Positions 1-64,000 of a stretch of 64,000 nt of DNA are shown here, in pieces. The translations under genes and the position numbers were made by a program. Each line of letters opens with the position of its first letter. Within the stretch, counting starts at the first letter, position 1. The stretch comes from Gordius sp. MW1. Taxonomy: Eukaryota > Nematomorpha > Gordioida > Gordea > Gordiidae. Below the pieces are notes generated by a model, which was not told the DNA's origin, did not search any database, and saw only the letters and a program-made list of their open reading frames with translations. The DNA is taken from the NCBI GenBank assembly GCA_964036665.1, contig OZ038528.1, forward strand, positions 11,290,501 to 11,354,500, given 5' to 3'.

Positions 1-358
1 TTTCTTTGAACCGTATTCATCCGATGAAAGTTGTCGTTTTCAGACGTGGTTTCCATGATAAAAAGTAAAAATTTATCAGAATCAGAAAACTATTACTTTG
101 AAATCATGATCGCATATGCATTTTTGAAAAATTAAGCACTCACGTTGCGATACAACAAACTAATCGCAACAATAAAACGTTGTCTTTTGTCAAAATGATA
201 GTTCTCGCAGCTTAAAACCTCTTTTCGGAAGCCAATCGATGATAATAGGATTCTCAATTTGGCTTACTTTTATATATTTTTTCATGCTCTTTCACATAGA
301 ATCGAAAAAAAAAATATTTTTACCTCAAAATTTTTCACATATTTTTCTTTAAACCGTA

Positions 359-371
359 TTCATCCGATGAA
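359..371. other. 13-bp dyad TTCATC-C-GATGAA (representative copy)
   Basis: The arms TTCATC and GATGAA are perfect reverse complements around one central C. The dyad is intact in the many monomers reading CCGATGAAAG and broken by one change in those reading CCGAAGAAAG. The two states alternate along the array, for example intact at 1043-1065 and altered at 698-720. Symmetric sites of this size can bind dimeric proteins, but no binding factor can be named from sequence alone. Confidence 0.6.
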
Positions 372-445
372 AGTTGTCGTTTTCAGACGTGGTTTCCATG
401 ATAAAAAGTAAAATTTTATCTGAATCAGAAAACTATTACTTTGAA

Positions 446-453
446 ATCATGAT
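446..453. other. 8-bp palindrome ATCATGAT (representative copy)
   Basis: ATCATGAT is self-complementary and lies just upstream of the hairpin cluster. It is kept in nearly all monomers; exceptions include the change to ATCATAAT at about 26077 and 29466, and to ATCATTAT in the 46.4, 49.2 and 51.2 kb copies. A palindrome this short could be chance, and its meaning is unknown. Confidence 0.4.
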
Positions 454-458
454 CGCAT

Positions 459-484
459 AGTGCATTTTTGAAAAATTAAGCACT
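459..484 (+). other. Imperfect hairpin/dyad, arms AGTGC and GCACT
   Basis: The outer arms AGTGC (459-463) and GCACT (480-484) are complementary. They enclose ATTTTT (464-469), a central G and AAAAAT (471-476), which are also complementary; the only unpaired stem bases are TAA at 477-479. Several subfamilies break the outer arms without compensation, for example ATTGC with GCAGT in the 11-24 kb TATTATT subfamily and ACTGC with GCACT near 61-64 kb. A strictly conserved RNA or DNA fold is therefore not supported. Confidence 0.5.
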
Positions 485-487
485 CAC

Positions 488-514
488 GTTGCGATACAAC
501 AAACTAATCGCAAC
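488..514 (+). other. Hairpin with 8-bp arms GTTGCGAT / ATCGCAAC, 11-nt loop
   Basis: GTTGCGAT (488-495) and ATCGCAAC (507-514) are perfect reverse complements separated by an 11-nt A/C-rich loop. It begins three bases after the preceding dyad, so two potential cruciforms sit side by side. It is intact in most monomers. Exceptions include GTTGCGAA at about 6022, 7740, 8093 and 8437, GTTGAGAT near 1871 and 3949, and the common ATCGCAAA state from about 30.9 kb onward, which keeps seven of eight pairs. Confidence 0.6.
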
Positions 515-528
515 AATAAAACGTTGTC

Positions 529-539
529 TTTTGTCAAAA
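529..539. other. 11-bp dyad TTTTG-T-CAAAA
   Basis: The arms TTTTG and CAAAA are symmetric about one T. This is the last of the dyads grouped in the central 100 bp of the monomer. One subfamily (11-24 kb) reads TTTTGTGAAAA, which breaks the symmetry, and the copies at about 47230, 49960 and 52005 delete part of it. It may be only a by-product of A/T richness. Confidence 0.35.
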
Positions 540-632
540 GATAGTTCTCGCAGCTTTAAACCTCTTTTCGGAAGTCAATCGATGATAATAATATTCTCAA
601 ATTGGCCTACTTTTATATATTTTTTCATGCTC

Positions 633-693
633 TTTCACATAGAATCGAAAAAAATAAATATTTTTACCTCAAAATTTTTCACATATTTTTCTT
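633..693. other. A/T-tract segment with 9-bp direct repeats
   Basis: TTTCACATA occurs twice, at 633-641 and 677-685, 44 bp apart. Between and after them lie A7 (648-654), AAATATTTTT (656-665), AAAATTTTT (671-679) and TTTTT (686-690), with centres 10-14 bp apart, roughly one helical turn. Tracts spaced this way can curve DNA (established knowledge). This is the most length-variable part of the monomer: the first A run ranges from about 7 to 13, and several inferred recombination breakpoints fall here. Confidence 0.55.
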
Positions 694-1764
694 TGAACCG
701 TATTCATCCGAAGAAAGTTGTCGTTTTCAGACGTGGTTTCCATGATAAAAAGTAAAATTTTATCAGAATCAGAAAACTATTACTTTGAAATCATGATCGC
801 ATAGTGCATTTTTGAAAAATTAAGCACTCACGTTGCGATACAACAAACTAATCGCAACAATAAAACGTTGTCTTTTGTCAAAATGATAGTTCTCGCAGCT
901 TAAAACCTCTTTTCGGAAGTCAATCGATGATAATAGGATTCTCAAATTGGCCTACTTTTATATATTTTTTCATGCTCTTTCACATAGAATCGAAAAAAAT
1001 AAATATTTTTACCTCAAAATTTTTCACATATTTTTCTTTCAACCGTATTCTTCCGATGAAAGTTGTCGTTTTCAGACGTGGTTTCCATGATAAAAAGTAA
1101 AATTTTATCAGAATCAGAAAACTATTACTTTGAAATCATGATCGCATAGTGCATTTTTGAAAAATTAAGCACTCACGTTGCGATACAACAAACTAATCGC
1201 AATAATAAAACGTTGTCTTTTGTCAAAATGATAGTTCTCGCAGCTTAAAACCTCTTTTCGGAAGCCAATCGATGATAATAGGATTCTCAATTTGGCTTAC
1301 TTTTATATATTTTTTCATGCTCTTTCACATAGAATCGAAAAAAAAAATATTTTTACCTCAAAATTTTTCACATATTTTTCTTTAAACCGTATTCATCCGA
1401 TGAAAGTTGTCGTTTTCAGACGTGGTTTCCATGATAAAAAGTAAAATTTTATCTGAATCAGAAAACTATTACTTTGAAATCATGATCGCATAGTGCATTT
1501 TTGAAAAATTAAGCACTCACGTTGCGATACAACAAACTAATCGCAACAATAAAACGTTGTCTTTTGTCAAAATGAAGTTCTCGCGGCTTAAAACCTCTTT
1601 TCGGAAGTCAATCGATGATAATAGGATTCTCAAATTGGCCTACTTTTATATATTTTTTCATGCTCTTTCACATAGAATCGAAAAAAATAAATATTTTTAC
1701 CTCAAAATTTTTCACATAATTTTCTTTAAACCGTATTCATCCGATGAAAGTTGTCGTTTTCAGA

Positions 1765-4700
1765 CGTGGTGTGGTTTCCATGATAAAAAGTAAAAATTTA
1801 TCAGAATCAGAAAACTATTACTTTGAAATCATGATCGCATAGTGCATTTTTGAAAAATTAAGCACTCACGTTGAGATACAACAAACTAATCGCAACAATA
1901 AAACGTTGTCTTTTGTCAAAATGATAGTTCTCGCAGCTTAAAACCTCTTTTCGGAAGTCAATCGAGGATAATAGGATTCTCAAATTGGCTTACTTTTATA
2001 TATTTTTTTATGCTCTTTCACATAGAATCGAAAAAAAAAATATTTTTACCTCAAAATTTTTCACATATATTTCTTTCAACCGTATTCATCCGATGAAAGT
2101 TGTCGTTTTCCGACGTGGTTTCTCCATGATAAAAAGTAAAAATTTATCAGAATCAAAAAACTATTACTTTGAAATCATGACCGCATAGTGCATTTTTGAA
2201 AAATTAAGCACTCACGTTGCGATACAACAAACTAATCGCAACAATAAAACGTTGTCTTTTGTTAAAATGATAGTTCTCGCAGCTTAAAACCTCTTTTCGG
2301 AAGTCAATCGAGGATAATAGGATTCTCAAATTGGCTTACTTTTATATATTTTTTTATGCTCTTTCACATAGAATCGAAAAAAAAATATTTTTACCTCAAA
2401 ATTTTTCACATATTTTTCTTTGAACCGTATTGATCCGATGAAAGTTGTCGTTTTCAGACGTGGTTTCCTTGATAAAAAGTAAAAATTTATCAGAATCAGA
2501 AAACTATTACTTTGAAATCATGATCGCATAGTGCATTTTTGAAAAATTAAGCACTCACGTTGCGATACAACAAACTAATCGCAACAATAAAACGTTGTCT
2601 TTTGTCAAAATGATAGTTCTCGCAGCTTAAAACCTCTTTTCGGAAGTCAATCGATGATAATAGGATTCTCAAATTGGCCTACTTTTATATATTTTTTCAT
2701 GCTCTTTCACATAGAATCGAAAAAAATAAATATTTTTACCTCAAAATTTTTCACATATTTTTCTTTCAACCGTATTCATCCGATGAAAGTTGTCGTTTTC
2801 AGACGTGGTGTGGTTTCCATGATAAAAAGTAAAAATTTATCAGAATCAGAAAACTATTACTTTGAAATCATGATCGCATAGTGCATTTTTGAAAAATTAA
2901 GCACTCACGTTGCGATACAACAAACTAATCGCAACAATAAAACGTTGTCTTTTGTCAAAATGATAGTTCTCGCAGCTTACAACTTCTTTTCGGAAGTCAA
3001 TCGAGGATAATAGGATTCACAAATTGGCTTACTTTTATATATTTTTTCATGCTCTTTTACATAGAATCGAAAAAAAAAATATTTTTACCTCAAAATTTTT
3101 CACATATATTTCTTTCAACCGTATTCATCTGATGAAAGTTGTCGTTTTCAGACGTGGTTTCCATGATAAAAAGTAAAAATTTATCAGAATCAGAAAACTA
3201 CTACTTTGAAATCATGATCGCATAGTGCATTTTTGAAAAATTAAGCACTCACGTTGCGATACAACAAACTAATCGCAACAATAAAACGTTGTCTTTTGTC
3301 AAAATGATAGTTCTCGCAGCTTAAAACCTCTTTTCGGAAGTCAATCGAGGATAATAGGATTCTCAAATTGGCTTTCTTTTATATATTTTTTCATGCTCTT
3401 TCACATAGAATCGAAAAAAATAAATATTTTTACCTCAAAATTTTTCACATATTTTTCTTTGAACCGTATTCATCCGATGAAAGTTGTCGTTTTCAGACGT
3501 GGTTTCCATGATAAAAAGTAAAAATTTATCAGAATCAGAAAACTATTACTTTGAAATCATGATCGCATAGTGCATTTTTGAAAAATTAAGCACCACGTTG
3601 CGATACAACAAACTAATCGCAACAATAAAACGTTGTCTTTTGTCAAAATGATAGTTCTCGCAGCTTAAAACCTCTTTTCGGAAGTCAATCGATGATAATA
3701 GGATTCTCAAATTGGCCTACTTTTATATATTTTTTCATGCTCTTTCACATAGAATCGAAAAAAATAAATATTTTTACCTCAAAATTTTTCACATATTTTT
3801 CTTTCAACCGTATTCATCCGATGAAAGTTGTCGTTTTCAGACGTGGTGTGGTTTCCATGATAAAAAGTAAAAATTTATCAGAATCAGAAAACTATTACTT
3901 TGAAATCATGATCGCATAGTGCATTTTTGAAAAATTAAGCACTCACGTTGAGATACAACAAACTAATCGCAACAATAAAACGTTGTCTTTTGTCAAAATG
4001 ATAGTTCTCGCAGCTTAAAACCTCTTTTCGGAAGTCAATCGAGGATAATAGGATTCTCAAATTGGCTTACTTTTATATATTTTTTTATGCTCTTTCACAT
4101 AGAATCGAAAAAAAAATATTTTTACCTCAAAATTTTTCACATATTTTTCTTTGAACCGTATTCATCCGATGAAAGTTGTCGTTTTCAGACGTGGTTTCCT
4201 TGATAAAAAGTAAAAATTTATCAGAATCAGAAAACTATTACTTTGAAATCATGATCGCATAGTGCATTTTTGAAAAATTAAGCACTCACGTTGCGATACA
4301 ACAAACTAATCGCAACAATAAAACGTTGTCTTTTGTCAAAATGATAGTTATCGCAGCTTAAAACCTCTTTTCGGAAGTCAATCGATGATAATAGGATTCT
4401 CAAATTGGCTTACTTTTATATATTTTTTCATGCTCTTTCACATAGAATCGAAAAAAATAAATATTTTTACCTCAAAATTTTTCACATATTTTTCTTTCAA
4501 CCGTATTCATCCGATGAAAGTTGTCGTTTTCAGACGTGGTGTGGTTTCCATTATAAAAAGTAAAAATTTATCAGAATCAGAAAACTATTACTTTGAAATC
4601 ATGATCGCATAGTGCATTTTTGAAAAATTAAGCACTCACGTTGCGATACAACAAACTAATCGCAACAATAAAACGTTGTCTTTTGTCAAAATGATAGTTC

Positions 4701-11025: not shown

Positions 11026-14000
11026 TTAACATATTATTATTTCAGCCGTATTCATCCGAAGAAAGTTGTCGTTTTCAGACGTCGTTTCCATGATAAAAAG
11101 TAAAAATTTATCAGAATAAGAAAACTATTACTTTGAAATCATGATCGCATATTGCATTTTTGAAAAATTAAGCAGTTACGTTGCGATACAACAAACTAAT
11201 CGCAACAATAAAACGTTGTCTTTCGTCAAAATGATAGTTCTCGCAGCTTAAAACCTCTTTTCTGAAGTCAATCGAGGATAATAGGATTCTCAAATTGGCT
11301 TACTTTTATATATTTTTTCATGCTCTTTCACATAGAATCGAAAAAAAAAATATTTTTACCTCAAAATTTTTCACATATTATTATTTCAGCCGTATTCATC
11401 CGAAGAAAGTTGTCGTTTTCAGACGTCGTTTCCATGATAAAAAGTAAAAATTTATCAGAATCAGAAAACTATTACTTTGAAATCATGATCGCATATTGCA
11501 TTTTTGAAAAATTAAGCAGTTACGTTGCGATACAACAAACTAATCGCAACAATAAAACGTTGTCTTTTGTGAAAATGATAGTTCTCGCAGCTTAAAACCT
11601 CTTTTCGGAAGTCAATCGAGGATAATAGGATTCTCAAATTGGCTTACTTTTATATATTTTTTTATGCTCTTTCACATAGAATCGAAAAAAATAAATATTT
11701 TTACCTTAAAATTTTGAACCGTATTCATCCGATGAAAGTTGTCGTTTTCAGACGTGGTTTCCATGATAAAAAGTAAAAATTTATCAGAATCAGAAAACTA
11801 TTACTTTGAAATCATGATCGCATAGTGCATTTTTGAAAAATTAAGCACTCACGTTGCGATACAACAAACTAATCGCAACAATAAAACGTTGTCTTTTGTC
11901 AAAATGATAGTTCTCGCAGCTTAAAACCTCTTTTCGGAAGTCAATCGAGGATAATAGGATTCTCAAATTGGCTTACTTTTATATTTTTTTTTATGCTCTT
12001 TCACATAGAATCGAAAAAAATAAATATTTTTACCTTAAAATATTTCACACATTTTTCTTTGAACCGTACATCCGATGAAAGTTGTCGTTTTCAGACGTGG
12101 TTTCCATGATAAAAAGTAAAAATTTATCAGAATCAGAAAACTATTACATTGAAATCATGATCGCATAGTGCATTTTTGAAAAATTAAGCACTCACGTTGC
12201 GATACAACAAACTAATCGCAACAATGAGACGTTGTCTTTTGTCAAAATGATAGTTCTCGCAGCTTAAAACCTCTTTTCGGAAGTCAATCGAGGATAATAG
12301 GATTCTCAAATTGGCCTACTTTTATATGTTTTTTCATGCTCTTTCACATAGAATCAAAAAAAAATATTTTTACCTCAAAATTTTTCACATATTTTTCTTT
12401 GAACCGTATTCATCCGATGAAAGTTGTCGTTTTCAGAGGTGGTTTCCTTGATAAAAAGTAAAAATTTATCAGAATCAGAAAACTATTACTTTGAAATCAT
12501 GATCGCATAGTTCATTTTTGAAAAATTAAGCACTCACGTTGCGATACAACAAACTAATCGCAACAATAAAACGTTGTCTTTTGTCAAAATGATAGTTCTC
12601 GCAGCTTAAAACCTCTTTTCTGAAGTCAATCGAGGATAATAGGATTCTCAAATTGGCTTACTTTTATATATTTTTTCATGCTCTTTCACATAGAATCGAA
12701 AAAAAAAAATTTTTACCTCAAAATTTTTCACATATTATTATTTCAACCGTATTCATCCGAAGAAAGTTGTCGTTTTCAGACGTCGTTTCCATGATAAAAA
12801 GTAAAAATTTATCAGAATCAGAAAACTATTACTTTGAAATCATGATCGCATATTGCATTTTTGAAAAATTAAGCAGTTACGTTGCGATACAACAAACTAA
12901 TCGCAACAATAAAACGTTGTCTTTTGTGAAAATGATAGTTCTCGCAGCTTAAAACCTCTTTTCGGAAGTCAATCGAGGATAATAGGATTCTCAAATTGGC
13001 TTACTTTTATATATTTTTTTATGCTCTTTCACATAGAATCGAAAAAAATAAATATTTTTACCTTAAAATTTTGAACCGTATTCATCCGATGAAAGTTGTC
13101 GTTTTCAGACGTGGTTTCCATGATAAAAAGTAAAAATTTATCAGAATCAGAAAACTATTACTTTGAAATCATGATCGCATAGTGCATTTTTGAAAAATTA
13201 AGCACTCACGTTGCGATACAACAAACTAATCGCAACAATAAAACGTTGTCTTTTGTCAAAATGATAGTTCTCGCAGCTTAAAACCTCTTTTCGGAAGTCA
13301 ATCGAGGATAATAGGATTCTCAAATTGGCTTACTATTATATATTTTTTCATGCTATTTCACATAGAATCGAAAAAAAAATATTTTTACCTCAAAATTTTT
13401 CACATATTATTATTTCAACCGTATTCATCCGAAGAAAGTTGTCGTTTTCAGACGTCGTTTCCATGATAAAAAGTAAAAATTTATCAGAATCAGAAAACTA
13501 TTACTTTGAAATCATGATCGCATATTGCATTTTTGAAAAATTAAGCAGTTACGTTGCGATACAACAAACTAATCGCAACAATAAAACGTTGTCTTTTGTG
13601 AAAATGATAGTTCTCGCAGCTTAAAACCTCTTTTCGGAAGTCAATCGAGGATAATAGGATTCTCAAATTGGCTTACTTTTATATATTTTTTTATGCTCTT
13701 TCACATAGAATCGAAAAAAATAAATATTTTTACCTTAAAATTTTGAACCGTATTCATCCGATGAAAGTTGTCGTTTTCAGACGTGGTTTCCATGATAAAA
13801 AGTAAAAATTTATCAGAATCAGAAAACTATTACTTTGAAATCATGATCGCATAGTGCATTTTTGAAAAATTAAGCACTCACGTTGCGATACAACAAACTA
13901 ATCGCAACAATAAAACGTTGTCTTTTGTCAAAATGATAGTTCTCGCAGCTTAAAACCTCTTTTCGGAAGTCAATCGAGGATAATAGGATTCTCAAATTGG

Positions 14001-15386
14001 CTTACTATTATATATTTTTTCATGCTATTTCACATAGAATCGAAAAAAAAATATTTTTACCTCAAAATTTTTCACATATTTTTCTTTGGACCGTATTCAT
14101 CCGAAGAAAGTTGTCGTTTTCAGACGTGGTTTCCATGATAAAAAGTAAAAATTTATCAGAATCAGAAAACTATTACTTTGAAATCATGATCGCATAGTGC
14201 ATTTTTGAAAAATTAAGCACTCACGTTGCGATAAAACAAACTAATCGCAACAATAAAACGTTGTCTTTTGTCAAAATGATAGTTCTCGGAGCTTAATACC
14301 TCTTTTCGGAAGTCAATCGAGGATAATAGGATTCTCAAATTGGCTTACTTTTATATATTTTTTCATGCTCTTTCACATAGAATCGAAAAAAATAAATATT
14401 TTTACCTCAAAATTTTTCACATATTTTTATTTGAACCGTATTCATCCGATGAAAGTTGTCGTTTTCCGACGTGGTTTCCATGATAAAAAGTAAAAATTTA
14501 TCAGAATCAAAAAACTATTACTTTGAAATCATGATCGCATAGTGCATTTTTGAAAAATTAAGCACTTACGTTGCGATACAACAAACTAATCGCAACAATA
14601 AAACGTTGTCTTTTGTCAAAATGATAGTTCTCGCAGCTTAAAACCTCTTTTCGGAAGTCAATCGAGGATAATAGGATTCTCAAATTGGCCTACTTTTATA
14701 TATTTTTTCATGCTCTTTCACATAGAATCAAAAAAAAATATTTTTACCTCAAAATTTTTCACATATTTTTCTTTGAACCGTATTCATCCGAAGAAAGTTG
14801 TCGTTTTCAGACGTGGTTTCCATGATAAAAAGTAAAAATTTATCAGAATCAGAAAACTATTACTTTGAAATCATGATCGCATAGTGCATTTTTGAAAAAT
14901 TAAGCACTCACGTTGCGATAAAACAAACTAATCGCAACAATAAAACGTTGTCTTTTGTCAAAATGATAGTTCTCGGAGCTTAATACCTCTTTTCGGAAGT
15001 CAATCGAGGATAATAGGATTCTCAAATTGGCTTACTTTTATATATTTTTTCATGCTCTTTCACATAGAATCGAAAAAAATAAATATTTTTACCTTAAAAT
15101 TTTGAACCGTATTCATCCGATGAAAGTTGTCGTTTTCAGACGTGGTTTCCATGATAAAAAGTAAAAATTTATCAGAGTCAGAAAACTATTACTTTGAAAT
15201 CATGATCGCATAGTGCATTTTTGAAAAATTAAGCACTCACGTTGCGATACAACAAACTAATCGCAACAATAAAACGTTGTCTTTTGTCAAAATGATAGTT
15301 CTCGCAGCTTAAAACCTCTTTTCGGAAGTCAATCGAGGATAATAGGATTCTCAAATTGGCTTACTATTATATATTTTTTCATGCTA
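11026..15386. repeat. Block B: transition into the HOR domain
   Basis: Two new monomer types enter here: the TATTATTATTTC subfamily (first near 11030) and the 16-bp-deleted short monomer (first near 11715). Parts of the block are relatives of the 4416-bp HOR. About 11.7-12.3 kb matches 18.1-18.7 kb at an offset of 6435 bp, and about 12.3-13.4 kb matches 19.4-20.5 kb at 7119 bp. The 684-bp difference means the block lacks two monomers found in the HOR. No gene or non-satellite sequence is present. Confidence 0.8.
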
Positions 15387-48500: not shown

Positions 48501-51500
48501 AAATCATGATCGCATAGTGCATTTTTGAAAAATTAAGCACTCACGTTGCGATACAACAAACTAATCGCAACAATAAAACGTTGTCTTTTGTCAAAATGAT
48601 AGTTCTCGCAGCTTAAAACCTCTTTTCGGAAGTCAATCGTGATAATAGGATTCTCAAATTGGCTTACTTTTATATATTTTTTCATGCTCTTTCACATAGA
48701 ATCGAAAAAAAAAATATTTTTACCTCAAAATTTTCACATATTTTTCTTTGAACCGTATTCATCCGAAGAAAGTTGTCGTTTTCAGACGTGGTTTCCATGA
48801 TAAAAAGTAAAAATTTATCAGAATCAGAAAACTATTACTTTGAAATCATGATCGCATAGTGCATTTTTGAAAAATTAAGCACTCACGTTGCGATACAACA
48901 AACTAATCGCAACAATAAAACGTTGTCTTTTGTCAAAATGATAGTTCTCGCAGCTTAAAACCTCTTTTCGGAAGTCAATAGAGGATAATATGATTCTCAA
49001 ATTGGCCTACTTTTATATATTTTTTCATGCTCTTTCACATAGAATCGAAAAAAATAAATATTTTTACCTCAAAATTTTTGACATATTTTTCTTTGAACCG
49101 TATTCATCCGATGAAAGTTGTCGTTTTCCGACGTGGTTTCCATGATAAAAAGTAAAAATTTATCAGAATCAAAAAACTATTACTTTGAAATCATTATCGC
49201 ATAGTGCATTTTTGAAAAATTAAGCACTCACGTTGCGATACAACAAACTAATCGCAACAATAAAACGTTGTCTTTTGTCAAAATGATAGTCCTCGCAGCT
49301 TAAAACCTCTTTTCGGAAGTCAATCGAGGATAATAGGATTCTCAAATTGGCTTACTTTTATATATTTTTTCATGCTCTTTCACATAGAATCGAAAAAAAA
49401 ATATTTTTACCTCAAAATTTTTCACATATTTTTCTTTGAACCGTATTCATCCGAAGAAAGTTGTCGTTTTCAGACGTGGTTTCCATGATAAAAAGTAAAA
49501 ATTTATCAGAATCAGAAAACTATTACTTTGAAATCATGATCGCATAGTGCATTTTTGAAAAATTAAGCACTCACGTTGCGATACAACAAACTAATCGCAA
49601 AAATAAAACGTTGTCTTTTGTCAAAATGATAGTTCTCGCAGCTTAAAACCTCTTTTCGGAAGTCAATAGAGGATAATAGGATTCTCAAATTGGCCTACTT
49701 TTATATATTTTTTCATGCTCTTTCACATAGAATCGAAAAAAATAAATATTTTTACCTCAAAATTTTTCACATATTTTTCTTTCAACCGTATTCATCCGAT
49801 GAAAGTTGTCGTTTTCAGACGTGGTTTCCATGATAAAAAGTAAAAATTTATCAGAATCAGAAAACTATTACTTTGAAATCATGATCGCATAGTGCATTTT
49901 TGAAAAAGTAAGCAGTTACGTTGCGATACAACAAACTAATCGCAACAATAAAACGTTGTCATTGTCAAAATGATAGTTCTCGCAGCTTAAAACCTCTTTT
50001 CGGAAGTCAATCGAGGATAATAGGATTCTCAAATTGGCTTACTTTTATATATTTTTTTATGCTCTTTCACATAGAATCGAAAAAAATAAATATTTTTACC
50101 TTAAAATTTTGAACCGTATTCATCCGATGAAAGTTGTCGTTTTCAGACGTGGTTTCCATGATAAAAAGTAAAAATTTATCAGAATCAGAAAACTATTACT
50201 TTGAAATCATGATCGCATAGTGCATTTTTGAAAAATTAAGCACTCACGTTGCGATACAACAAACTAATCGCAACAATAAAACGTTGTCTTTTGTTAAAAT
50301 GATAGTTCTCGCAGCTTAAAACCTCTTTTCGGAAGTCAATCGAGGATAATAGGATTCTCAAATTGGCCTACTTTTATATATTTTTTCATGCTCTTTCACA
50401 TAGAATCAAAAAAAAATATTTTTACCTCAAAATTGTTCACATATTTTTCTTTGGACCGTATTCATCCGAAGAAAGTTGTCGTTTTCAGACGTGGTTTCCA
50501 TGATAAAAAGTAAAAATTTATCAGAATCAGAAAACTATTACATTGAAATCATGATCGCATAGTGCATTTTTGAAAAATTAAGCACTCACGTTGCGATACA
50601 ACAAACTAATCGCAACAATAAAACGTTGTCTTTTGTCAAAATGATAGTTCTCGCAGCTTAAAACCTCTTTTCGGAAGTCAATCGTGATAATAGGATTCTC
50701 AAATTGGCTTACTTTTATATATTTTTTCATGCTCTTTCACATAGAATCGAAAAAAAAAATATTTTTACCTCAAAATTTTCACATATTTTTCTTTGAACCG
50801 TATTCATCCGAAGAAAGTTGTCGTTTTCAGACGTGGTTTCCATGATAAAAAGTAAAAATTTATCAGAATCAGAAAACTATTACTTTGAAATCATGATCGC
50901 ATAGTGCATTTTTGAAAAATTAAGCACTCACGTTGCGATACAACAAACTAATCGCAACAATAAAACGTTGTCTTTTGTCAAAATGATAGTTCTCGCAGCT
51001 TAAAACCTCTTTTCGGAAGTCAATAGAGGATAATATGATTCTCAAATTGGCCTACTTTTATATATTTTTTCATGCTCTTTCACATAGAATCGAAAAAAAT
51101 AAATATTTTTACCTCAAAATTTTTGACATATTTTTCTTTGAACCGTATTCATCCGATGAAAGTTGTCGTTTTCCGACGTGGTTTCCATGATAAAAAGTAA
51201 AAATTTATCAGAATCAAAAAACTATTACTTTGAAATCATTATCGCATAGTGCATTTTTGAAAAATTAAGCACTCACGTTGCGATACAACAAACTAATCGC
51301 AACAATAAAACGTTGTCTTTTGTCAAAATGATAGTCCTCGCAGCTTAAAACCTCTTTTCGGAAGTCAATCGAGGATAATAGGATTCTCAAATTGGCTTAC
51401 TTTTATATATTTTTTCATGCTCTTTCACATAGAATCGAAAAAAAAATATTTTTACCTCAAAATTTTTCACATATTTTTCTTTGAACCGTATTCATCCGAA

Positions 51501-52476
51501 GAAAGTTGTCGTTTTCAGACGTGGTTTCCATGATAAAAAGTAAAAATTTATCAGAATCAGAAAACTATTACTTTGAAATCATGATCGCATAGTGCATTTT
51601 TGAAAAATTAAGCACTCACGTTGCGATACAACAAACTAATCGCAAAAATAAAACGTTGTCTTTTGTCAAAATGATAGTTCTCGCAGCTTAAAACCTCTTT
51701 TCGGAAGTCAATAGAGGATAATAGGATTCTCAAATTGGCCTACTTTTATATATTTTTTCATGCTCTTTCACATAGAATCGAAAAAAATAAATATTTTTAC
51801 CTCAAAATTTTTCACATATTTTTCTTTCAACCGTATTCATCCGATGAAAGTTGTCGTTTTCAGACGTGGTTTCCATGATAAAAAGTAAAAATTTATCAGA
51901 ATCAGAAAACTATTACTTTGAAATCATGATCGCATAGTGCATTTTTGAAAAAGTAAGCAGTTACGTTGCGATACAACAAACTAATCGCAACAATAAAACG
52001 TTGTCATTGTCAAAATGATAGTTCTCGCAGCTTAAAACCTCTTTTCGGAAGTCAATCGAGGATAATAGGATTCTCAAATTGGCTTACTTTTATATATTTT
52101 TTTATGCTCTTTCACATAGAATCGAAAAAAATAAATATTTTTACCTTAAAATTTTGAACCGTATTCATCCGATGAAAGTTGTCGTTTTCAGACGTGGTTT
52201 CCATGATAAAAAGTAAAAATTTATCAGAATCAGAAAACTATTACTTTGAAATCATGATCGCATAGTGCATTTTTGAAAAATTAAGCACTCACGTTGCGAT
52301 ACAACAAACTAATCGCAACAATAAAACGTTGTCTTTTGTTAAAATGATAGTTCTCGCAGCTTAAAACCTCTTTTCGGAAGTCAATCGAGGATAATAGGAT
52401 TCTCAAATTGGCCTACTTTTATATATTTTTTCATGCTCTTTCACATAGAATCAAAAAAAAATATTTTTACCTCAAA
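45543..52476. repeat. Six-monomer 2045-bp unit, three copies with a two-monomer spacer
   Basis: The unit occupies 45658-47702, 48387-50431 and 50432-52476. The second and third copies are directly adjacent. The first and second are separated by 684 bp (47703-48386, two monomers), giving offsets of 2729 and 2045 bp. Shared markers are AATTGTTCAC with TTTGGACCG, CAATCGTGATAAT, AATAGAGGATAATATG, TTTTTGACATATT, ATCATTATCGC, GATAGTCCTCG, GTAAGCAGTTACG and the shortened TTGTCATTGTC (near 47229, 49958, 52003). The first copy differs by GAATTAGAA near 46095 and by ATTACTTTG where the other two have ATTACATTG. Confidence 0.9.
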
Positions 52477-55400
52477 ATTTTTCACATATTTTTCTTTGAA
52501 CCGTATTCATTCGATGAAAGTTGTCGTTTTCAGACGTGGTTTCCTCGATAAAAAGTAAAAATTTATCAGAATCAGAAAACTATTACTTTGAAATCATGAT
52601 CGCATAGTGCATTTTTGAAAAATTAAGCACTCACGTTGCGATACAACAAACTAATCGCAACAATAAAACGTTGTCTTTTGTCAAAATGATAGTTCTCGCA
52701 GCTTAAAACCTCTTTTCGGAAGTCAATAGAGGATAATAGGATTCTCAAATTGGCCTACTTTTATATATTTTTTCATGCTCTTTCACATAGAATCAAAAAA
52801 AAAATATTTTTACCTCAAAATTTTTCACATATTTTTCTTTGAACCGTATTCATCCGAAGAAAGTTGTCGTTTTCAGACGTGGTTTCCATGATAAAAAGTA
52901 AAAATTTATCAGAATCAGAAAACTATTACTTTGAAATCATGATCGCATAGTGCATTTTTGAAAAATTAAGCACTCACGTTGCGATACAACAAACTAATCG
53001 CAAAAATAAAACGTTGTCTTTTGTCAAAATGATAGTTCTCGCTGCTTAAAACCTCTTTTCGGAAGTCAATCGAGGATAATAGGATTCTCAAATTGGCTTA
53101 CTTTTATATCTTTTTTTATGCTCTTTCACATAGAATCGAAAAAAATAAATATTTTTACCTTAAAATTTTGAACCGTATTCATCCGATGAAAGTTGTCGTT
53201 TTCAGACGTGGTTTCCATGATAAAAAGTAAAAATTTATCAGAATCAGAAAACTATTACTTTGAAATCATGATCGCATAGTGCATTTTTGAAAAATTAAGC
53301 ACTCACGTTGCGATACAACAAACTAATCGCAACAATAAAACGTTGTCTTTTGTCAAAATGATAGTTCTCGCAGCTTGAAACCTCTTTTCGGAAGTCAATC
53401 GTGATAATAGGATTCTCAAATTGGCTTACTTTTATATATTTTTTCATGCTCTTTCACATAGAATCGAAAAAAAAAAATATTTTTACCTCAAAATTTTTCA
53501 CATATTTTTCTTTGAACCGTATTCATCCGAAGAAAGTTGTCGTTTTCAGACGTGGTTTCCATGATAAAAAGTAAAAATTTATCAGAATCAGAAAACTATT
53601 ACTTTGAAATCATGATCGCATAGTGCATTTTTGAAAAATTAAGCACTCACGTTGCGATACAACAAACTAATCGCAAAAATAAAACGTTGTCTTTTGTCAA
53701 AATGATAGTTCTCGCTGCTTAAAACCTCTTTTCGGAAGTCAATCGAGGATAATAGGATTCTCAAATTGGCTTACTTTTATATCTTTTTTTATGCTCTTTC
53801 ACATAGAATCGAAAAAAATAAATATTTTTACCTTAAAATTTTGAACCGTATTCATCCGATGAAAGTTGTCGTTTTCAGACGTGGTTTCCATGATAAAAAG
53901 TAAAAATTTATCAGAATCAGAAAACTATTACTTTGAAATCATGATCGCATAGTGCATTTTTGAAAAATTAAGCACTCACGTTGCGATACAACAAACTAAT
54001 CGCAACAATAAAACGTTGTCTTTTGTCAAAATGATAATTCTCGCAGCTTAAAACCTCTTTTCGGAAGTCAATCGAGGATAATAGGATTCTCAAATTGGCC
54101 TACTTTTATATATTTTTCATGCTCTTTCACATAGAATCTAAAAAAATATTTTTACCTCAAAATTTTTCACATATTTTTCTTTGAACTGTATTCATCCGAT
54201 GAAAGTTGTCGTTTTCAGACGTGGTTTCCTTGATAAAAAGTAAAAATTTATCAGAATCAGAAAACTATTACTTTGAAATCATGATCGCATAGTGCATTTT
54301 TGAAAATTAAGCACTCACGTTGCGATACAACAAACTAATCGCAACAATAAAACGTTGTCTTTTGTCAAAATGATAGTTCTCGCAGCTTAAAACCTCTTTT
54401 CGGAAGTCAATCGAGGATAATAGGATTCTCAAATTGGCTTACTTTTATATATTTTTTCATGCTCTTTCACATAGAATCGAAAAAAAAAATATTTTTACCT
54501 CAAAATTTTTCACATATTTTTCTTTGAACCGTATTCATCCGATGAAAGTTGTCGTTTTCAGACGTGGTTTCCTTGATAAAAAGTAAAAATTTATCAGAAT
54601 CAGAAAACTATTACTTTGAAATCATGATCGCATAGTGCATTTTTGAAAATTAAGCACTCACGTTGCGATACAACAAACTAATCGCAACAATAAAACGTTG
54701 TCTTTTGTCAAAATGATAGTTCTCGCAGCTTAAAACCTCTTTTCGGAAGTCAATAGAGGATAATAGGATTCTCAAATTGGCTTACTTTTATATCTTTTTT
54801 TATGCTCTTTCACATAGAATCGAAAAAAATAAATATTTTTACCTTAAAATTTTGAACCGTATTCATCCGATGAAAGTTGTCGTTTTCAGACGTGGTTTCC
54901 ATGATAAAAAGTAAAAATTTATCAGAATCAGAAAACTATTACTTTGAAATCATGATCGCATAGTGCATTTTTGAAAAATTAAGCACTCACGTTGCGATAC
55001 AACAAACTAATCGCAACAATAAAACGTTGTCTTTTGTCAAATGATAATTCTCGCAGCTTAAAACCTCTTTTCGGAAGTCAATCGAGGATAATAGGATTCT
55101 CAAATTGGCCTACTTTTATATATTTTTTCATGCTCTTTCACATAGAATCTAAAAAAATATTTTTACCTCAAAATTGTTCACATATTTTTCTTTGGACCGT
55201 ATTCATCCGAAGAAAGTTGTCGTTTTCAGACGTGGTTTCCATGATAAAAAGTAAAAATTTATCAGAATCAGAAAACTATTACTTTGAAATCATGATCGCA
55301 TAGTGCATTTTTGAAAAATTAAGCACTCACGTTGCGATACAACAAACTAATCGCAACAATAAAACGTTGTCTTTTGTCAAAATGATAGTTCTCGCAGCTT

Positions 55401-58400
55401 AAAACCTCTTTTCGGAAGTCAATCGAAGATAATAGGATTCTCAAATTGGCCTACTTTTATATATTTTTTCATGCTCTTTCACATAGAATCAAAAAAAATA
55501 AATATTTTTACCTCAAAATTGTTCACATATTTTTCTTTGAACCGTATTCATCCGATGAAAGTTGTCGTTTTCAGACGTGGTTTCCTTGATAAAAAGTAAA
55601 AATTTATCAGAATCAGAAAACTATTACTTTGAAATCATGATCGCATAGTGCATTTTTGAAAAATTAAGCACTCACGTTGCGATACAACAAACTAATCGCA
55701 ACAATAAAACGTTGTCTTTTGTCATAATGATAGTTCTCGCAGCTTAAAACCTCTTTTCGGAAGTCAATCGAGGATAATAGGATTCTCAAATTGGCTTACT
55801 TTTATATATTTTTTCATGCTCTTTCACATAGAATCGAAAAAAAAAAAAATTTTCCCTCAAAATTTTTCACATATTTTTCTTTGAACCGTATTCATCCGAT
55901 GAAAGTTGTCGTTTTCAGACGTGGTTTCCATGATAAAAAGTAAAAATTTATCAGAATCAGAAAACTATTACTTTGAAATCATGATCGCATAGTGCATTTT
56001 TGAAAAATTAAGCACTCACGTTGCGATACAACAAACTAATCGCAACAATAAAACGTTGTCTTTTGTCAAAATGATAGTTCTCGCAGCTTAAAACCTCTTT
56101 TCGGAAGTCAATCGAGGATAATAGGATTCTCAAATTGGCTTACTTTTATATATTTTTTCATGCTCTTTCACATAGAATCGAAAAAAAAATATTTTTACCT
56201 CAAAATTTTTCACATATTTTTCTTTGAACCGTATTCATCCGATGAAAGTTGTCGTTTTCAGACGTGGTTTCCATGATAAAAAGTAAAAATTTATCAGAAT
56301 CAGAAAACTATTACTTTGAAATCATGATCGCATAGTGCATTTTTGAAAAATTAAGCACTCACGTTGCGATACAACAAACTAATCGCAACAATAAAACGTT
56401 GTCTTTTGTCAAAATGATAGTTCTCGCAGCTTAAAACCTCTTTTCGGAAGTCAATCGAGGATAATAGGATTCTCAAATTGGCTTACTTTTATATATTTTT
56501 TTATGCTCTTTCACATAGAATCGAAAAAAATAAATATTTTTACCTTAAAATATTTCACATACTTTTCTTTGAACCGTATTCATCCGATGAAAGTTGTCGT
56601 TTTCAGACGTGGTTTCCATGATAAAAAGTAAAAATTTATCAGAATCAGAAAACTGTTACTTTGAAATCATGATCGCATAGTGCATTTTTGAAAAATTAAG
56701 CACTCACGTTGCGATACAACAAACTAATCGCAACAATAAAACGTTGTCTTTTGTCAAAATGATAGTTCTCGCAGCTTAAAACCTCTTTTCGGAAGTCAAT
56801 CGAGGATAATAGGATTCTCAAATTGGCCTACTTTTATATATTTTTTCATGCTTTTTCACATAGAATCAAAAAAAATAAATATTTTTACCTCAAAATTTTT
56901 CACATATTTTTCTTTGAACCGTATCCATCCGATGAAAGTTGTCGTTTTCAGACGTGGTTTCCTTGATAAAAAGTAAAAATTTATCAGAATCAGAAAACTA
57001 TTACTTTGAAATCATGATCGCATAGTGCATTTTTGAAAAATTAAGCACTCACGTTGCGATACAACAAACTAATCGCAACAATAAAACGTTGTCTTTTGTC
57101 ATAATGATAGTTCTCGCAGCTTAAAACCTCTTTTCGGAAGTCAATCGAGGATAATAGGATTCTCAAATTGGCTTACTTTTATATATTTTTTCATGCTCTT
57201 TCACATAGAATCGAAAAAAAAAATTTTTTACCTCAAAATTTTTCACATATTTTTCTTTGAACCGTATTCATCCGATGAAAGTTGTCGTTTTCAGACGTGG
57301 TTTCCATGATAAAAAGTAAAAATTTATCAGAATCAGAAAACTATTACTTTGAAATCATGATCGCATAGTGCATTTTTGAAAAATTAAGCCCTCACGTTGC
57401 GATACAACAAACTAATCGCAACAATAAAACGTTGTCTTTTGTCAAAATGATAGTTCTCGCAGCTTAAAACCTCTTTTCGGAAGTCAATCGAGGATAATAG
57501 GATTCTCAAATTGGCTTACTTTTATATATTTTTTCATGCTCTTTCACATAAAATCGAAAAAAAAATATTTTTACCTCAAAATTTTTCACATATTTTTCTT
57601 TGAACCGTATTCATCCGAAGAAAGTTGTCGTTTTCAGACGTGGTTTCCATGATAAAAAGTAAAAATTTATCAGAATCAGAAAACTATTACTTTGAAATCA
57701 TGATCGCATAGTGCATTTTTGAAAAAGTAAGCAGTTACGTTGCGATACAACAAACTAATCGCAACAATAAAACGTTGTCTTTTGTCAAAATGATAGTTCT
57801 CGCAGCTTAAAACCTCTTTTCGGAAGTCAATCGAGGATAATAGGATTCTCAAATTGGCTTACTTTTATATATTTTTTTATGCTCTTTCACATAGAATCGA
57901 AAAAAATAAATATTTTTACCTTAAAATTTTGAACCGTATTCATCCGATGAAAGTTGTCGTTTTCAGACGTGGTTTCCATGATAAAAAGTAAAAATTTATC
58001 AGAATCAGAAAACTATTACTTTGAAATCATGATCGCATAGTGCATTTTTGAAAAATTAAGCACTCACGTTGCGATACAACAAACTAATCGCAACAATAAA
58101 ACGTTGTCTTTTGTCAAAATGATAGTTCTCGCAGCTTAAAACCTCTTTTCGGAAGTCAATCGAGGATAATAGGATTCTCAAATTGGCCTACTTTTATATA
58201 TTTTTTCATGCTCTTTCACATAGAATTAAAAAAAATATTTTTACCTCAAAATTTTTCACATATTTTTCTTTAACCCGTATTCATCCGATGAAAGTTGTCG
58301 TTTTCAGACGTGGTTTCCTTGATAAAAAGTAAAAATTTATCAGAATCAGAAAACTATTACTTTGAAATCATGATCGCATAGTGCATTTTTGAAAAATTAA

Positions 58401-58600
58401 GCACTCACGTTGCGATACAACAAACCAATCGCAACAATAAAACGTTGTCTTTTGTCAAAATGATAGTTCTCGCAGCTTAAAACCTCTTTTCGGAAGTCAA
58501 TCGAGGAAATAGGATTCTCAAATTGGCTTACTTTTATATATTTTTTTATGCTCTTTCACATAGAATCGAAAAAAATAAATATTTTTACCTTAAAATTTTG
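52477..58600. repeat. Block E: mosaic monomers with long-range copies
   Basis: From 52477 the sequence resumes as the segment starting at 44643 (offset 7834 bp, with TCCTCGAT at 52543). The TATATCTTTTTTTATG variant occurs near 53107, 53780 and 54791, as well as at 45281, 36465 and 41561. About 54756-55423 matches 45241-45908 at 9515 bp (28 monomers), including the rare TTTTGTCAAATGATAATT form lacking one A. The end of the block copies 43-44 kb. Around 55.4-57.6 kb a two-to-four monomer pattern with TTGTCATAATG recurs near 55721 and 57099. No gene is present. Confidence 0.75.
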
Positions 58601-60636
58601 AACCGTATTCATCCGATGAAAGTTGTCGTTTTCAGACGTGGTTTCCATGATAAAAAGTAAAAATTTATCAGAATCAGAAAACTATTACTTTGAAATCATG
58701 ATCGCATAGTGCATTTTTGAAAAATTAAGCACTCACGTTGCGATACAACAAACTAATCGCAACAACAAAACGTTGTCTTTTGTCAAAATGATAGTTCTCG
58801 CAGCTTAAAACCTCTTTTCGGAAGTCAATCGAGGATAATAGGATTCTCAAATTGGCCTACTTTTATATATTTTTTCATGCTCTTTCACATAGAATCAAAA
58901 AAAAAATATTTTTACCTCAAAATTTTACGCATATTTTTCTTTGAACCGTATTCATCCGATGAAAGTTGTCGTTTTCAGACATGGTTTCCTTGATAAAAAG
59001 TAAAAATTTATCAGAATCAGAAAACTATTACTTTGAAATCATGATCGCATAGTGCATTTTTGAAAAATTAAGCACTCACGTTGCGATACAACAAACTAAT
59101 CGCAACAATAAAACGTTGTTTTTTGTCAAAATGATAGTTCTCACAGCTTAAAATTTCTTTTCGGAAGTCAATAGAGGATAATAGGATTCTCAAATTGGCC
59201 TACTTTTATATATTTTTTCATGCTCTTTCACATAGAATCGAAAAAAATAAATATTTTTACCTCAAAATTTTTCACATATTTTTCTTTGAACCGTATTCAT
59301 CCGATGACAGTTGTCGTTTTCCGACGTGGTTTTTATGATAAAAAGTAAAAATTTATCAGAATCAAAAAACTTACTTTGAAATCATGATCGCATACTGCAT
59401 TTTTGAAAAATTAAGCACTCACGTTGCGATACAACAAACTAATCGCAACAATAAAACGTTGTCATTTGTCAAAATGATAGTTCTCGCAGCTTAAAACCTC
59501 TTTTCGGAAGTCAATCGATGATAATAGGATTCTCAAAGTGGCCTACTTTTATATATTTTTTCATGCTCTTTCACATAGAATCGAAAAAAATAAATATTTT
59601 TACCTCAAAATTTTTCACATATTTTTCTTTCAACCGTATTCATCCGATGAAAGTTGTCGTTTTCAGACGTGGTTTCCATGATAAAAAGTAAAAATTTATC
59701 AGAATCAGAAAACTATTACTTTGAAATCATGATCGCATAGTGCATTTTTGAAAAATTAAGCACTCACGTTGCGATACAACAAACTAATCGCAACAACAAA
59801 ACGTTGTCTTTTGTCAAAATGATAGTTCTCGCAGCTTAAAACCTCTTTTCGGAAGTCAATCGAGGATAATAGGATTCTCAAATTGGCCTACTTTTATATA
59901 TTTTTTCATGCTCTTTCACATAGAATCAAAAAAAAAATATTTTTACCTCAAAATTTTACGCATATTTTTCTTTGAACCGTATTCATCCGATGAAAGTTGT
60001 CGTTTTCAGACATGGTTTCCTTGATAAAAAGTAAAAATTTATCAGAATCAGAAAACTATTACTTTGAAATCATGATCGCATAGTGCATTTTTGAAAAATT
60101 AAGCACTCACGTTGCGATACAACAAACTAATCGCAACAATAAAACGTTGTTTTTTGTCAAAATGATAGTTCTCACAGCTTAAAATTTCTTTTCGGAAGTC
60201 AATAGAGGATAATAGGATTCTCAAATTGGCCTACTTTTATATATTTTTTCATGCTCTTTCACATAGAATCGAAAAAAATAAATATTTTTACCTCAAAATT
60301 TTTCACATATTTTTCTTTGAACCGTATTCATCCGATGACAGTTGTCGTTTTCCGACGTGGTTTTTATGATAAAAAGTAAAAATTTATCAGAATCAAAAAA
60401 CTTACTTTGAAATCATGATCGCATACTGCATTTTTGAAAAATTAAGCACTCACGTTGCGATACAACAAACTAATCGCAACAATAAAACGTTGTCATTTGT
60501 CAAAATGATAGTTCTCGCAGCTTAAAACCTCTTTTCGGAAGTCAATCGATGATAATAGGATTCTCAAAGTGGCCTACTTTTATATATTTTTTCATGCTCT
60601 TTCACATAGAATCGAAAAAAATAAATATTTTTACCT
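58601..60636. repeat. Three-monomer 1031-bp tandem pair
   Basis: Rare variants repeat exactly 1031 bp apart: GCAACAACAAAACG near 58760/59791, AAATTTTACGCAT at 58920/59951, GACATGG near 58979/60010, CTCACAGCTTAAAATTTC near 59140/60171, CCGATGACAG near 59300/60331, AAACTTACTTTG (loss of TAT) near 59367/60398 and TCAAAGTGGCC near 59533/60564. The match ends where ACCTCAAAA becomes ACCTATAAA near 60637. Both copies look almost identical, so this amplification is recent. Confidence 0.88.
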
Positions 60637-63600
60637 ATAAATTTTTCACATATTTTTCTTTCAACCGTATTCATCCGATGAAAGTTGTCGTTTTCAGACG
60701 TGGTTTCCATGATAAAAAGTAAAAATTTATCAGAATCAGAAAACTATTACTTTGAAATCATGATCGCATAGTGCATTTTTGAAAAATTAAGCACTCACGT
60801 TGCGATACAACAAACTAATCCCAACAATAAAACGTTGTTTTTTGTCAAAATGATAGTTCTCGCAGCTTAAAACCTCTTTTCGGAAGTCAATAGAGGATAA
60901 TAGGATTCTCAAATTGGCCTACTTTTATATATTTTTTCATGCTCTTTCACATAGAATCGAAAAAAATAAATATTTTTACCTCAAAATTTTTCACATATTT
61001 TTCTTTGAACCGTATTCATCCGATGAAAGTTGTCGTTTTCCGACGTGGTTTCCATGATAAAAAGTAAAAATTTATCAGAATCAAAAAACTATTACTTTGA
61101 AATCATGATCGCATAGTGCATTTTTGAAAAATTAAGCACTCACGTTGCGATACAACAAACTAATCGCAACAATAAAACGTTGTCTTTTGTCAAAATGATA
61201 GTTCTCGCAGCTTAAAACCTCTTTTCGGAAGTCAATCGATGATAATAGGATTCTCAAATTGGCCTACTTTTATATATTTTTTCATGCTCTTTCACATAGA
61301 ATCGAAAAAAATAAATATTTTTACCTCAAAATTTTTCACATATTTTTCTTTGAACCGTATTCATCCGATGAAAGTTGTCGTTTTCCGACGTGGTTTCCAT
61401 GATAAAAAGTAAAAATTTATCAGAATCAAAAAACTATTACTTTGAAATCATGATCGCATACTGCATTTTTGAAAAATTAAGCACTCACGTTGCGATACAA
61501 CAAACTAATCGCAACAATAAAACGTTGTTTTTTGTCAAAATGATAGTTCTTCTCGCAGCTTAAAACCTCTTTTCGGAAGTCAATCGAGGATAATAGGATT
61601 CTCAAATTGGCTTACTTTTATATATTTTTTCATGCTCTTTCACAAAGAATCGAAAATAATAAATATTTTTACCTTAAAATATTTCACATATTTTTCTTTG
61701 AACCGTATTCATCCGATGAAAGTTGTCGTTTTCAGACGTGGTTTCCATGATAAAAAGTAAAAATTTATCAGAATCAGAAAACTATTACTTTGAAATCATG
61801 ATCGCATAGTGCATTTTTGAAAAATTAAGCACTCACGTTGCGATACAACAAACTAATCGCAACAATAAAACGTTGTCTTTTGTCAAAATGATAGTTCTCG
61901 CAGCTTAAAACCTCTTTTCGGAAGTCAATCGAGGATAATAGGATTCTCAAATTGGCCTACTTTTATATATTTTTTCATGCTCTTTCACATAGAATCAAAA
62001 AAAAAATATTTTTACCTCAAAATTTTTCACATATTTTTCTTTGAACCGTATTCATCCGATGAAAATTGTCGTTTTCAGACGTGGTTTCCATGATAAAAAG
62101 TAAAAATTTATCAGAATCAGAAAACTATTACTTTGAAATCATGATCGCATAGTGCATTTTTGAAAAATTAAGCACTCACGTTGCGATACAACAAACTAAT
62201 CGCAACAATAAACGTTGTCTTTTGTCAAAATGATAGTTCTCGCAGCTTAAAACCTATTTTCGGAAGTCAATCGAGGATAATAGGATTCTCAAATTGGCCT
62301 ACTTTTATATATTTTTTCATGCTCTTTCACATAGAATCAAAAAAAAAAATATTTTTACCTTAAAATATTTCACATATTTTTCTTTGAACCGTATTCATCC
62401 GATGAAAGTTGTCGTTTTCCGACGTGGTTTCCATGATAAAAAGTAAAAATTTATCAGAATCAAAAAACTATTACTTTGAAATCATGATCGCATACTGCAT
62501 TTTTGAAAAATTAAGCACTCACGTTGCGATAACAAACTAATCGCAACAAAACGTTGTCTTTTGTCAAAATGATAGTTCTCGCAGCTTAAAACCTCTTTTC
62601 GGAAGTCAATCGATGATAATAGGATTCTCAAATTGGCCTACTTTTATATATTTTTTCATGCTCTTTCACATAAAATCGAAAAAAATAAATATTTTTACCT
62701 CAAAATTTTTCACATATTTTTCTTTCAACCGTATTCATCCGATGAAAATTGTCGTTTTCAGACGTGGTTTCCATGATAAAAAGTAAAAATTTATCAGAAT
62801 CAGAAAACTATTACTTTGAAATCATGATCGCATAGTGCATTTTTGAAAAATTAAGCACTCACGTTGCGATACAACAAACTAATCGCAACAATAAAACGTT
62901 GTCTTTTGTCAAAATGATAGTTCTCGCAGCTTAAAACCTCTTTTCGGAAGTCAATCGAGGATAATAGGATTCTCAAATTGGCTTACTTTTATATATTTTT
63001 TCATGCTCTTTCACAAAGAATCGAAAAAAATAAATATTTTTACCTTAAAATATTTCACATATTTTTCTTTGAACCGTATTCATCCGATGAAAGTTGTCGT
63101 TTTCAGACGTGGTTTCCATGATAAAAAGTAAAAATTTATCAGAATCAGAAAACTATTACTTTGAAATCATGATCGCATAGTGCATTTTTGAAAAATTAAG
63201 CACTCACGTTGCGATACAACAAACTAATCGCAACAATATAACGTTGTCTTTTGTCAAAATCATAGTTCTCGCAGCTTAAAACCTCTTTTCGGAAGTCAAT
63301 CGAGGATAATAGGATTCTCAAATTGGCCTACTTTTATATATTTTTTCATGCTCTTTCACATAGAATCAAAAAAAATATTTTTACCTCAAAATTTTACGCA
63401 TATTTTTCTTTGAACCGTATTCATCCGATGAAAGTTGTCGTTTTCAGACATGGTTTCCTTGATAAAAAGTAAAAATTTATCAGAATCAGAAAACTATTAC
63501 TTTGAAATCATGATCGCATAGTGCATTTTTGAAAAATTAAGCACTCACGTTGCGATACAACAAACTAATCGCAACAATAAAACGTTGTTTTTTGTCAAAA

Positions 63601-64000
63601 TGATAGTTCTCACAGCTTAAAACCTCTTTTCGGAAGTCAATAGAGGATAATAGGATTCTCAAATTGGCCTACTTTTATATATTTTTCATGCTCTTTCACA
63701 TAGAATCGAAAAAAATAAATATTTTTACCTCAAAATTTTTCACATATTTTTCTTTGAACCGTATTCATCCGATGAAAGTTGTCGTTTTCCGACGTGGTTT
63801 CCATGATAAAAAGTAAAAATTTATCAGAATCAAAAAACTATTACTTTGAAATCATGATCGCATACTGCATTTTTGAAAAATTAAGCACTCACGTTGCGAT
63901 ACAACAAACTAATCGCAACAATAAAACGTTGTCTTTTGTCAAAATGATAGTTCTCGCAGCTTAAAACCTCTTTTCGGAAGTCAATCGATGATAATAGGAT
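60637..64000. repeat. Block F: full-length monomers at the right end
   Basis: About ten monomers, none with the 16-bp deletion. Several read CGCATACTGC, a state concentrated in the last 5 kb. AAATTTTACGCAT, GACATGG, GTTGTTTTTTG and CTCACAGC return near 63388-63615, about 3438 bp after their previous occurrence, but with AAAACCTC restored. This monomer is therefore a relative rather than a copy of the 1031-bp unit. A 3-bp TCT insertion (GTTCTTCTCGC) occurs near 61547. The window ends inside a monomer. Confidence 0.8.

Follow-up and report, generated by a model that had tools for sequence, protein, structure and literature searches.

In humans, the core family of alpha satellite is the most homogeneous and its flanking relatives are diverged. 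The mouse has telocentric chromosomes on which a small CENP-A minor satellite lies beside a much larger pericentromeric major satellite, and the fission yeast centromere has a central core between inverted flanking repeats that spans tens of kb and is not satellite-based. The closest described system is that of the beetle Tribolium madens, published in 2026, in which, according to the parts of that report drawn on here, two sister satellites (TmSat1 and TmSat2) with a ~110-bp ancestral unit form megabase regions with array-level inversions; the major and minor arrays are intermingled, the longest symmetries are 75 and 26 kb, and T. castaneum and T. freemani are described as well (PMC13081366). 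Here we describe a satellite, called A, that fills a 64,000-bp stretch of the genome of a horsehair worm (the window; C2:11290501-11354500 in an assembly of 12 contigs and 211.8 Mb) and a second satellite, B, that lies within the block of A on all eight large contigs. Judging from sequence, this A/B array very probably belongs to the worm's centromere, which would be regional and monocentric.

Throughout the window, satellite A runs head to tail on one strand as one array (1..64000, +), with a monomer of 344-345 bp. Tandem Repeats Finder returned one row covering all of it with a period of 343, 187.7 copies, 94% matches and 2% indels. Cutting by k-mer vote gave 188 anchors delimiting 187 whole monomers of 328-350 bp (123 distinct), with a 345-bp consensus, a mean pairwise identity of 0.951 and a minimum of 0.896. 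Most of the monomers (153) are 339-350 bp long and the other 34 are 328-329 bp long through a ~15-bp deletion. A looser anchor search found no minus-strand monomer anchors in the window, and the GC content is flat at 29.5-30.3% across all 32 bins of 2 kb. The A consensus, doubled to look for a half-monomer, had no direct matches away from its period other than short ones. The monomers are contiguous from base 152 to base 63900 and therefore leave no space for a gene or transposon, as judged from the monomers without a separate gene or transposon search. Thus, the original prediction of about 187 same-orientation monomers of ~344 bp, with no interruption, was confirmed. It had also called the repeat apparently undescribed. 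That satellite A is new to the literature is supported, not proven, as an exact 27-base core of A had no matches in IMG/VR and, among the open-access literature listed on nematomorphs and 344-bp satellites, no title or abstract contained a nematomorph satellite, a nematomorph centromere or this repeat; the kind of DNA is ordinary and already known.

Two features of the array go beyond what had been predicted, namely recent segmental duplications and an extension past the window. Segmental tandem duplications, defined as runs of at least 5 monomers in which every pair is at least 98.5% identical, involve 5-18 monomers each and include 94 of the 187 monomers; recent unequal exchange usually leaves such duplications behind. 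The 1.5 kb preceding the window is satellite, and to the right the nearest A among the matches listed lies 50 kb on, at C2:11404529. The exact repeat of the left end of the window (Table 1) has its partner at C2:11470819 onward over at least 3,400 bp, and reflects a large duplication of recent date or else a stretch that the assembly contains twice.

A genome-wide count using a 33-base core with up to 3 mismatches found 68,676 copies of A (40,629 forward and 28,047 reverse; control 0), corresponding to ~23.6 Mb or ~11% of the assembly, which understates the amount if many monomers are diverged. The assembly comprises C1-C7 (21-28 Mb), C8 (37.4 Mb), C9 (1.37 Mb), two small contigs and a mitochondrial contig of 14.8 kb. 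We mapped the satellites with 172 spot probes, which covered 169 different places because three cores were sampled twice. The probes were typed by BLAST against A and B, and places with listed matches to A were added as extra points. C9 was represented by one probe, and C10 and C11 were left out. The probes were spaced from 10 kb to several Mb apart, so that small outlying arrays could escape. In total, 79 probes were A, 32 were B and 61 were neither. At this resolution each of the eight large contigs has a single A block, about 2-4 Mb long (Table 1). Within the blocks 79 of 113 probes were A, 31 were B and 3 were neither, the last at 12.90 and 13.10 Mb on C1 and 14.40 Mb on C8, all in or at the B zone; thus, the cleanness of the window is general for A. 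Outside the blocks 58 of 59 probes were negative, including the one on C9, and the remaining probe had a lone B-like monomer with 82% identity (C8, 20.0 Mb). Multiplying copy number by unit length (344 bp for the 68,676 copies of A and 349 bp for the 9,550 of B) gives 27.0 Mb, in agreement with ~26 Mb for the summed blocks. Identity among the A monomers of one locus was 0.948-0.977 at six of seven loci and 0.891 at the seventh, which is at the edge of C5.

We read the starts of the eight large contigs and found the telomere repeat CCCTAA at six (C1, C2, C3, C5, C6, and C8), suggesting that the satellite blocks are internal; C7 starts with other sequence and no telomere repeat. All of the A matches listed for C2 (10.83 to 12.14 Mb) are on the + strand, placing the window in a larger A+ arm. 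This is the right A arm of C2, and the window sits ~0.5 Mb from the B core. The suggestion in the original prediction of a centromeric or pericentromeric block is supported by the spot map, with one block on each of the eight chromosome-size contigs and the window in an arm and not in the core. If the A/B division of labour proposed below holds, the DNA of the window would be pericentromeric arm.

Satellite B was recognised from probes that had about 71-74% identity to A and proved to be a distinct family with a unit of ~350 bp. Counting with a 31-base pattern and up to 3 mismatches gave 9,550 copies (control 0), or ~3.3 Mb, which is ~0.4 Mb per chromosome on average. Short pieces of B from four chromosomes were 80-97% identical. 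Whole monomers from C2, C6, and C7 were 0.944-0.956 identical within loci and 0.891-0.931 identical between them, indicating that B is still being homogenised. The A and B consensus sequences align over their full length, with a best-rotation score of 234 versus a maximum of 55 in 20 shuffles (these were rotated in coarser steps than the real pair), and are 80% identical at 321 gap-free aligned positions. By this alignment, A and B are evidently sister satellites from one ancestral unit of ~345 bp. The placement of B on C4 and C7 comes from one probed place each, with pattern matches alongside on C4. We forecast the location of B from C1, C2, C4, C7, and C8 before probing the other three contigs, and it was found where forecast on two of them (C5 and C6). 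The direction of B changes within the core on C1, C5, C6, and C8. Near 20.002 Mb in the arm of the largest chromosome, C8, there is a lone diverged B-like monomer (80-82%) that may be left over from an earlier centromere. This monomer lies between direct repeats, and an origin of B from a transposon was considered; it was rejected because the repeats match separately at many places.

A search of the genome for histone folds gave 190 candidates, of which 150 were scored. Canonical H3 was found twice among those scored. Among the weaker matches is one divergent, intron-split H3 gene on C5 near 23.668 Mb, and other weak matches occur on C1, C2, C4, C6, and elsewhere. The exons of the C5 gene, read by eye, encode a histone fold with a loop 1 region (VREIANELKIGGDFYRWQITALAALQE) that is 3 residues longer than that of H3. 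A lengthened loop 1 is typical of CENP-A. In the PDB this protein matched H3/CENP-A chimeras best (97.9 bits), then CENP-A (94.3-92.5) and, close behind, H3 (92.3 and below). From these features the worm appears to encode a CENP-A-type histone, with a small margin over H3 in the PDB match. Thus, of the features by which a centromeric satellite can be judged from sequence, we found one block per chromosome that is common to all eight and a CENP-A-type histone gene. The CENP-B box has the motif TTCGNNNNANNCGGG. No match to it within 2 substitutions was found in A, and B has one weak 2-substitution match per unit.

Each 2-4 Mb block consists of long, clean arms of A with a core of B between them that is smaller and interrupted in places. 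We propose that CENP-A chromatin and the kinetochore are seeded within the block, with B as the likelier site, and that the A arms form pericentromeric heterochromatin, holding sister chromatids together and insulating the core. Uniformity is probably maintained by unequal exchange and segmental duplication within the arms, plus exchange between chromosomes. We lean towards B as the site of CENP-A because it lies within the block on every large contig, occupies a limited part of it and continues to be homogenised. It may instead be that A itself is the CENP-A satellite and that B, once the centromere repeat, is older, is degenerating and has been trapped in the middle by a two-sided expansion of A, a possibility that we favour less but take seriously. 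At most of its loci A equals or exceeds B in homogeneity, A is much more abundant, the only non-satellite probes within the blocks (3 of 113) fall in the B zone, and the lone diverged B-like monomer lies out in an arm; however, a relic would need to have been retained inside the block on all eight chromosomes, and the identities of B within three loci and between three chromosomes are those of a repeat undergoing homogenisation. We consider it improbable that neither satellite is the CENP-A site. It is similarly improbable that the block is heterochromatin with no kinetochore function, either knob-like or purely pericentric, and that the centromere lies elsewhere. Although clean satellite alone is no proof of a centromere and the function is read here from position, there is one block of similar size on each of the eight chromosomes and each block holds a second satellite.

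Several observations weigh against a centromere with B at its core. The occurrence of one block per chromosome, that is, position, is the sole basis for assigning centromere function, and the chromosome arms are thinly sampled, with 1-13 negative probes outside the block per chromosome. An exon-by-exon search of the genome found no match to the CENP-C family PF11699 at E <= 1 (0/1 genome), although introns or a short divergent domain could hide CENP-C in such a search; matches below the threshold also turned up in 8 of the 14 prokaryotes that served as controls. Usually it is the array of highest homogeneity that is active, and the homogeneity of the A loci (six of seven at 0.948-0.977 versus 0.944-0.956 for B) speaks for A as the core. 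Foreign sequence sits in the B zone, as in an ageing array. Across the 79 A probes, the identity of A to its consensus is flat with respect to distance from the core (Spearman 0.07, p 0.52), and there is thus no age gradient supporting layered growth. The forecast for C3 (15.1-15.7 Mb) failed. This stretch contains no B and has a switch in A orientation between 15.100 and 15.110 Mb, and the B core of C3 is at 14.3-14.8 Mb. Folding and inverted-repeat counts do not discriminate between A and B as the core. The single-strand folding z score was -1.96 for the A monomer and -0.31 and -0.49 for B monomers. Short inverted repeats numbered 7, 5, 11, and 7 at four A loci versus 3.9, 6.1, 3.7, and 3.3 in 15 Markov shuffles, and 8, 15, and 44 at three B loci versus 4.4, 5.1, and 8.0, with only the C7 B locus having a count far out of range.

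In the assembly, the A points nearest B on its two sides, as located by spot probes, run in opposite directions on seven of eight chromosomes, the exception being C3. The arms point toward the core on C1, C5, C6, C7, and C8 and away from it on C2 and C4. Both orientations of A occur within the block on all eight chromosomes and additional switches occur within the arms of C1, C2, C3, C5, C7, and C8. One switch on C2 falls between 10.000 and 10.063 Mb. It is conceivable, though we regard it as rather unlikely, that every centromere is a megabase inverted structure in which a CENP-A-bearing core satellite lies between mirror-image arms of a sister satellite; this would be the first account of a nematomorph centromere. 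Hi-C orients long satellite contigs poorly, and the orientation switches, but not the core, could be a scaffolding product in which repeat contigs were joined in arbitrary order and direction, an explanation that we hold only tentatively. The probability of at least seven of eight opposite nearest arms by coin toss is 0.035 and there are the further switches within arms, so that the mirror plan is suggestive but not secured. The recurrence of an identical 3,400-bp stretch 180,318 bp off also fits a scaffolding origin. By contrast, the location of B inside A on all eight contigs is independent of contig orientation, and no N was present in 20 sampled 4-kb loci, four of them satellite, which says little about gaps elsewhere.

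When compared by description, not by sequence, the worm array is closest to the macro-dyads of T. madens. Going by the parts of the report used here, both have two satellites that descend from a single ancestral unit and occupy multi-megabase regions of every chromosome, in which the orientation often changes (macro-dyad symmetry), and CenH3 evidence is lacking for T. madens as for the worm; switches within the region, which define a macro-dyad, are found in all eight worm blocks as assembled. Unlike in T. madens (PMC13081366), B of the worm makes up a single core zone on each chromosome, and the spot probes indicate orientation runs of up to hundreds of kb. The worm array resembles human alpha satellite in being a probable regional centromere on related families, with a core, flanking relatives and recent segmental duplications. 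It differs in having larger flanks that are about as homogeneous as the core and, as regards the CENP-B box, in having none in A within 2 substitutions and one weak, repeated match in B. The division of labour proposed for B and A is like that between the minor and major satellites of the mouse, which adjoin side by side, whereas A of the worm lies on both sides of B. A core between inverted flanks is also found in fission yeast, but the worm structure is megabases long and satellite-based, and the inverted plan is seen on only seven of eight chromosomes.

Nematomorpha are among the least sequenced animal phyla and are sister to the nematodes, many of which are holocentric. A monocentric satellite centromere with a conventional CENP-A in Nematomorpha, if true, would bear on when holocentricity arose. 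The presence of core and arm sister satellites on all large chromosomes would make it possible to test cleanly which of sequence family, orientation and position determines the site of CENP-A. The inverted plan, if true, would be a large-scale counterpart, made by satellite DNA alone, of the core-and-inverted-repeat plan of fission yeast. If real, it would also extend to a distant animal the macro-dyad pattern described, in the parts of the report used here, for Tribolium (PMC13081366).

Table 1. Satellite blocks on the eight large contigs and features of the A array in the window (positions of window features are counted from its first base).
Feature	Position	Strand	Basis or detail
A/B block, outermost positive points	C1 11.25-14.4 Mb		spot probes
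A/B block, outermost positive points	C2 8.7-12.5 Mb		spot probes
A/B block, outermost positive points	C3 12.7-16.6 Mb		spot probes
A/B block, outermost positive points	C4 2.0-4.0 Mb		spot probes
A/B block, outermost positive points	C5 11.0-14.5 Mb		spot probes
A/B block, outermost positive points	C6 13.0-16.0 Mb		spot probes
A/B block, outermost positive points	C7 8.5-11.3 Mb		spot probes
A/B block, outermost positive points	C8 12.7-16.6 Mb		spot probes
First whole monomer as cut; phase start ACAACAAACTAATCGC	window 152..495	+	k-mer-vote cutting
Interspersed 328-329 bp monomer variant; none earlier or later in the window	window 11532..58745	+	monomer cutting
Recent segmental duplication, 18 monomers (15249-21366) with copy at 19665-25783, lag 13 monomers	window 15249..25783	+	mean identity 0.9985
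Recent segmental tandem duplication, 15 monomers (31575-36670) with directly adjoining copy at 36671-41766	window 31575..41766	+	mean identity 0.9996
Left end of window, exact repeat 180,318 bp onward in C2	window 1..1900	+	3,400/3,400 bp identical, including 1,500 bp before the window

The mitochondrial contig identifies the host. Its order of genes is rrnL (minus), nad1 (minus), cox1, cox2, atp6, cox3, nad3, nad4, nad5, nad2 (minus), and nad6, where rrnL was placed from Rfam and rrnS, nad4L, atp8, and cytb were not placed. The contig contains 27 inverted-repeat pairs of at least 24 nt, two of them less than 80% complementary and many of them perfect, which lie mostly in nad1, atp6, nad4, nad5, nad2, and nad6 according to the translations that we read. 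In the parts of the published work used here, inverted repeats are described in atp6, nad1, and nad5 in all four nematomorph species studied (PMC6649704), and in the published order one strand carries rrnL-rrnS-nad1, the opposite strand carries cox1 to nad3, and nad2 is inverted (PMC10380579). As far as these parts of the two papers go, their authors had no gene order from the other nematomorph class (PMC10380579, PMC6649704). Because the gene order and the inverted repeats inside mitochondrial genes match those published, the mitochondrial genome of the host is evidently that of a horsehair worm (Nematomorpha), gordioid in type. Insects such as beetles and wasps, which the monomer and the genome size had at first suggested, were rejected on account of the TTAGGG-type telomeres and the mitochondrial genes. 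Many microRNA matches in this contig were rejected as genes since they are inverted repeats that fit hairpin models. ARAGORN in its bacterial-code setting found no tRNA in the mitochondrial contig and Rfam found one. The nuclear genome contains matches to mitochondrial cox1 at C8:2829490-2830827 and at 22 more places, and these include fragments of a single copy. One match is nearly full length and almost equal to the mitochondrial gene in match quality.

Some further observations concern the ends of the contigs and the surroundings of the C2 block. The contig starts that carry a telomere repeat show that the repeat type in this nematomorph is TTAGGG. In place of a telomere repeat, the starts of C4 and C9 have a short repeat of the CCGTTGTCCGT type in opposite orientations, and C9 may be the missing end of C4. 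Two large tandem histone gene clusters are located on C2, at 12985957-13214431 with units of ~5.2 kb and at 15175767-15284061 with units of ~6.3 kb, the former starting 0.3-0.5 Mb from the satellite block. By translation they contain H2B, and the second histone is probably H2A.

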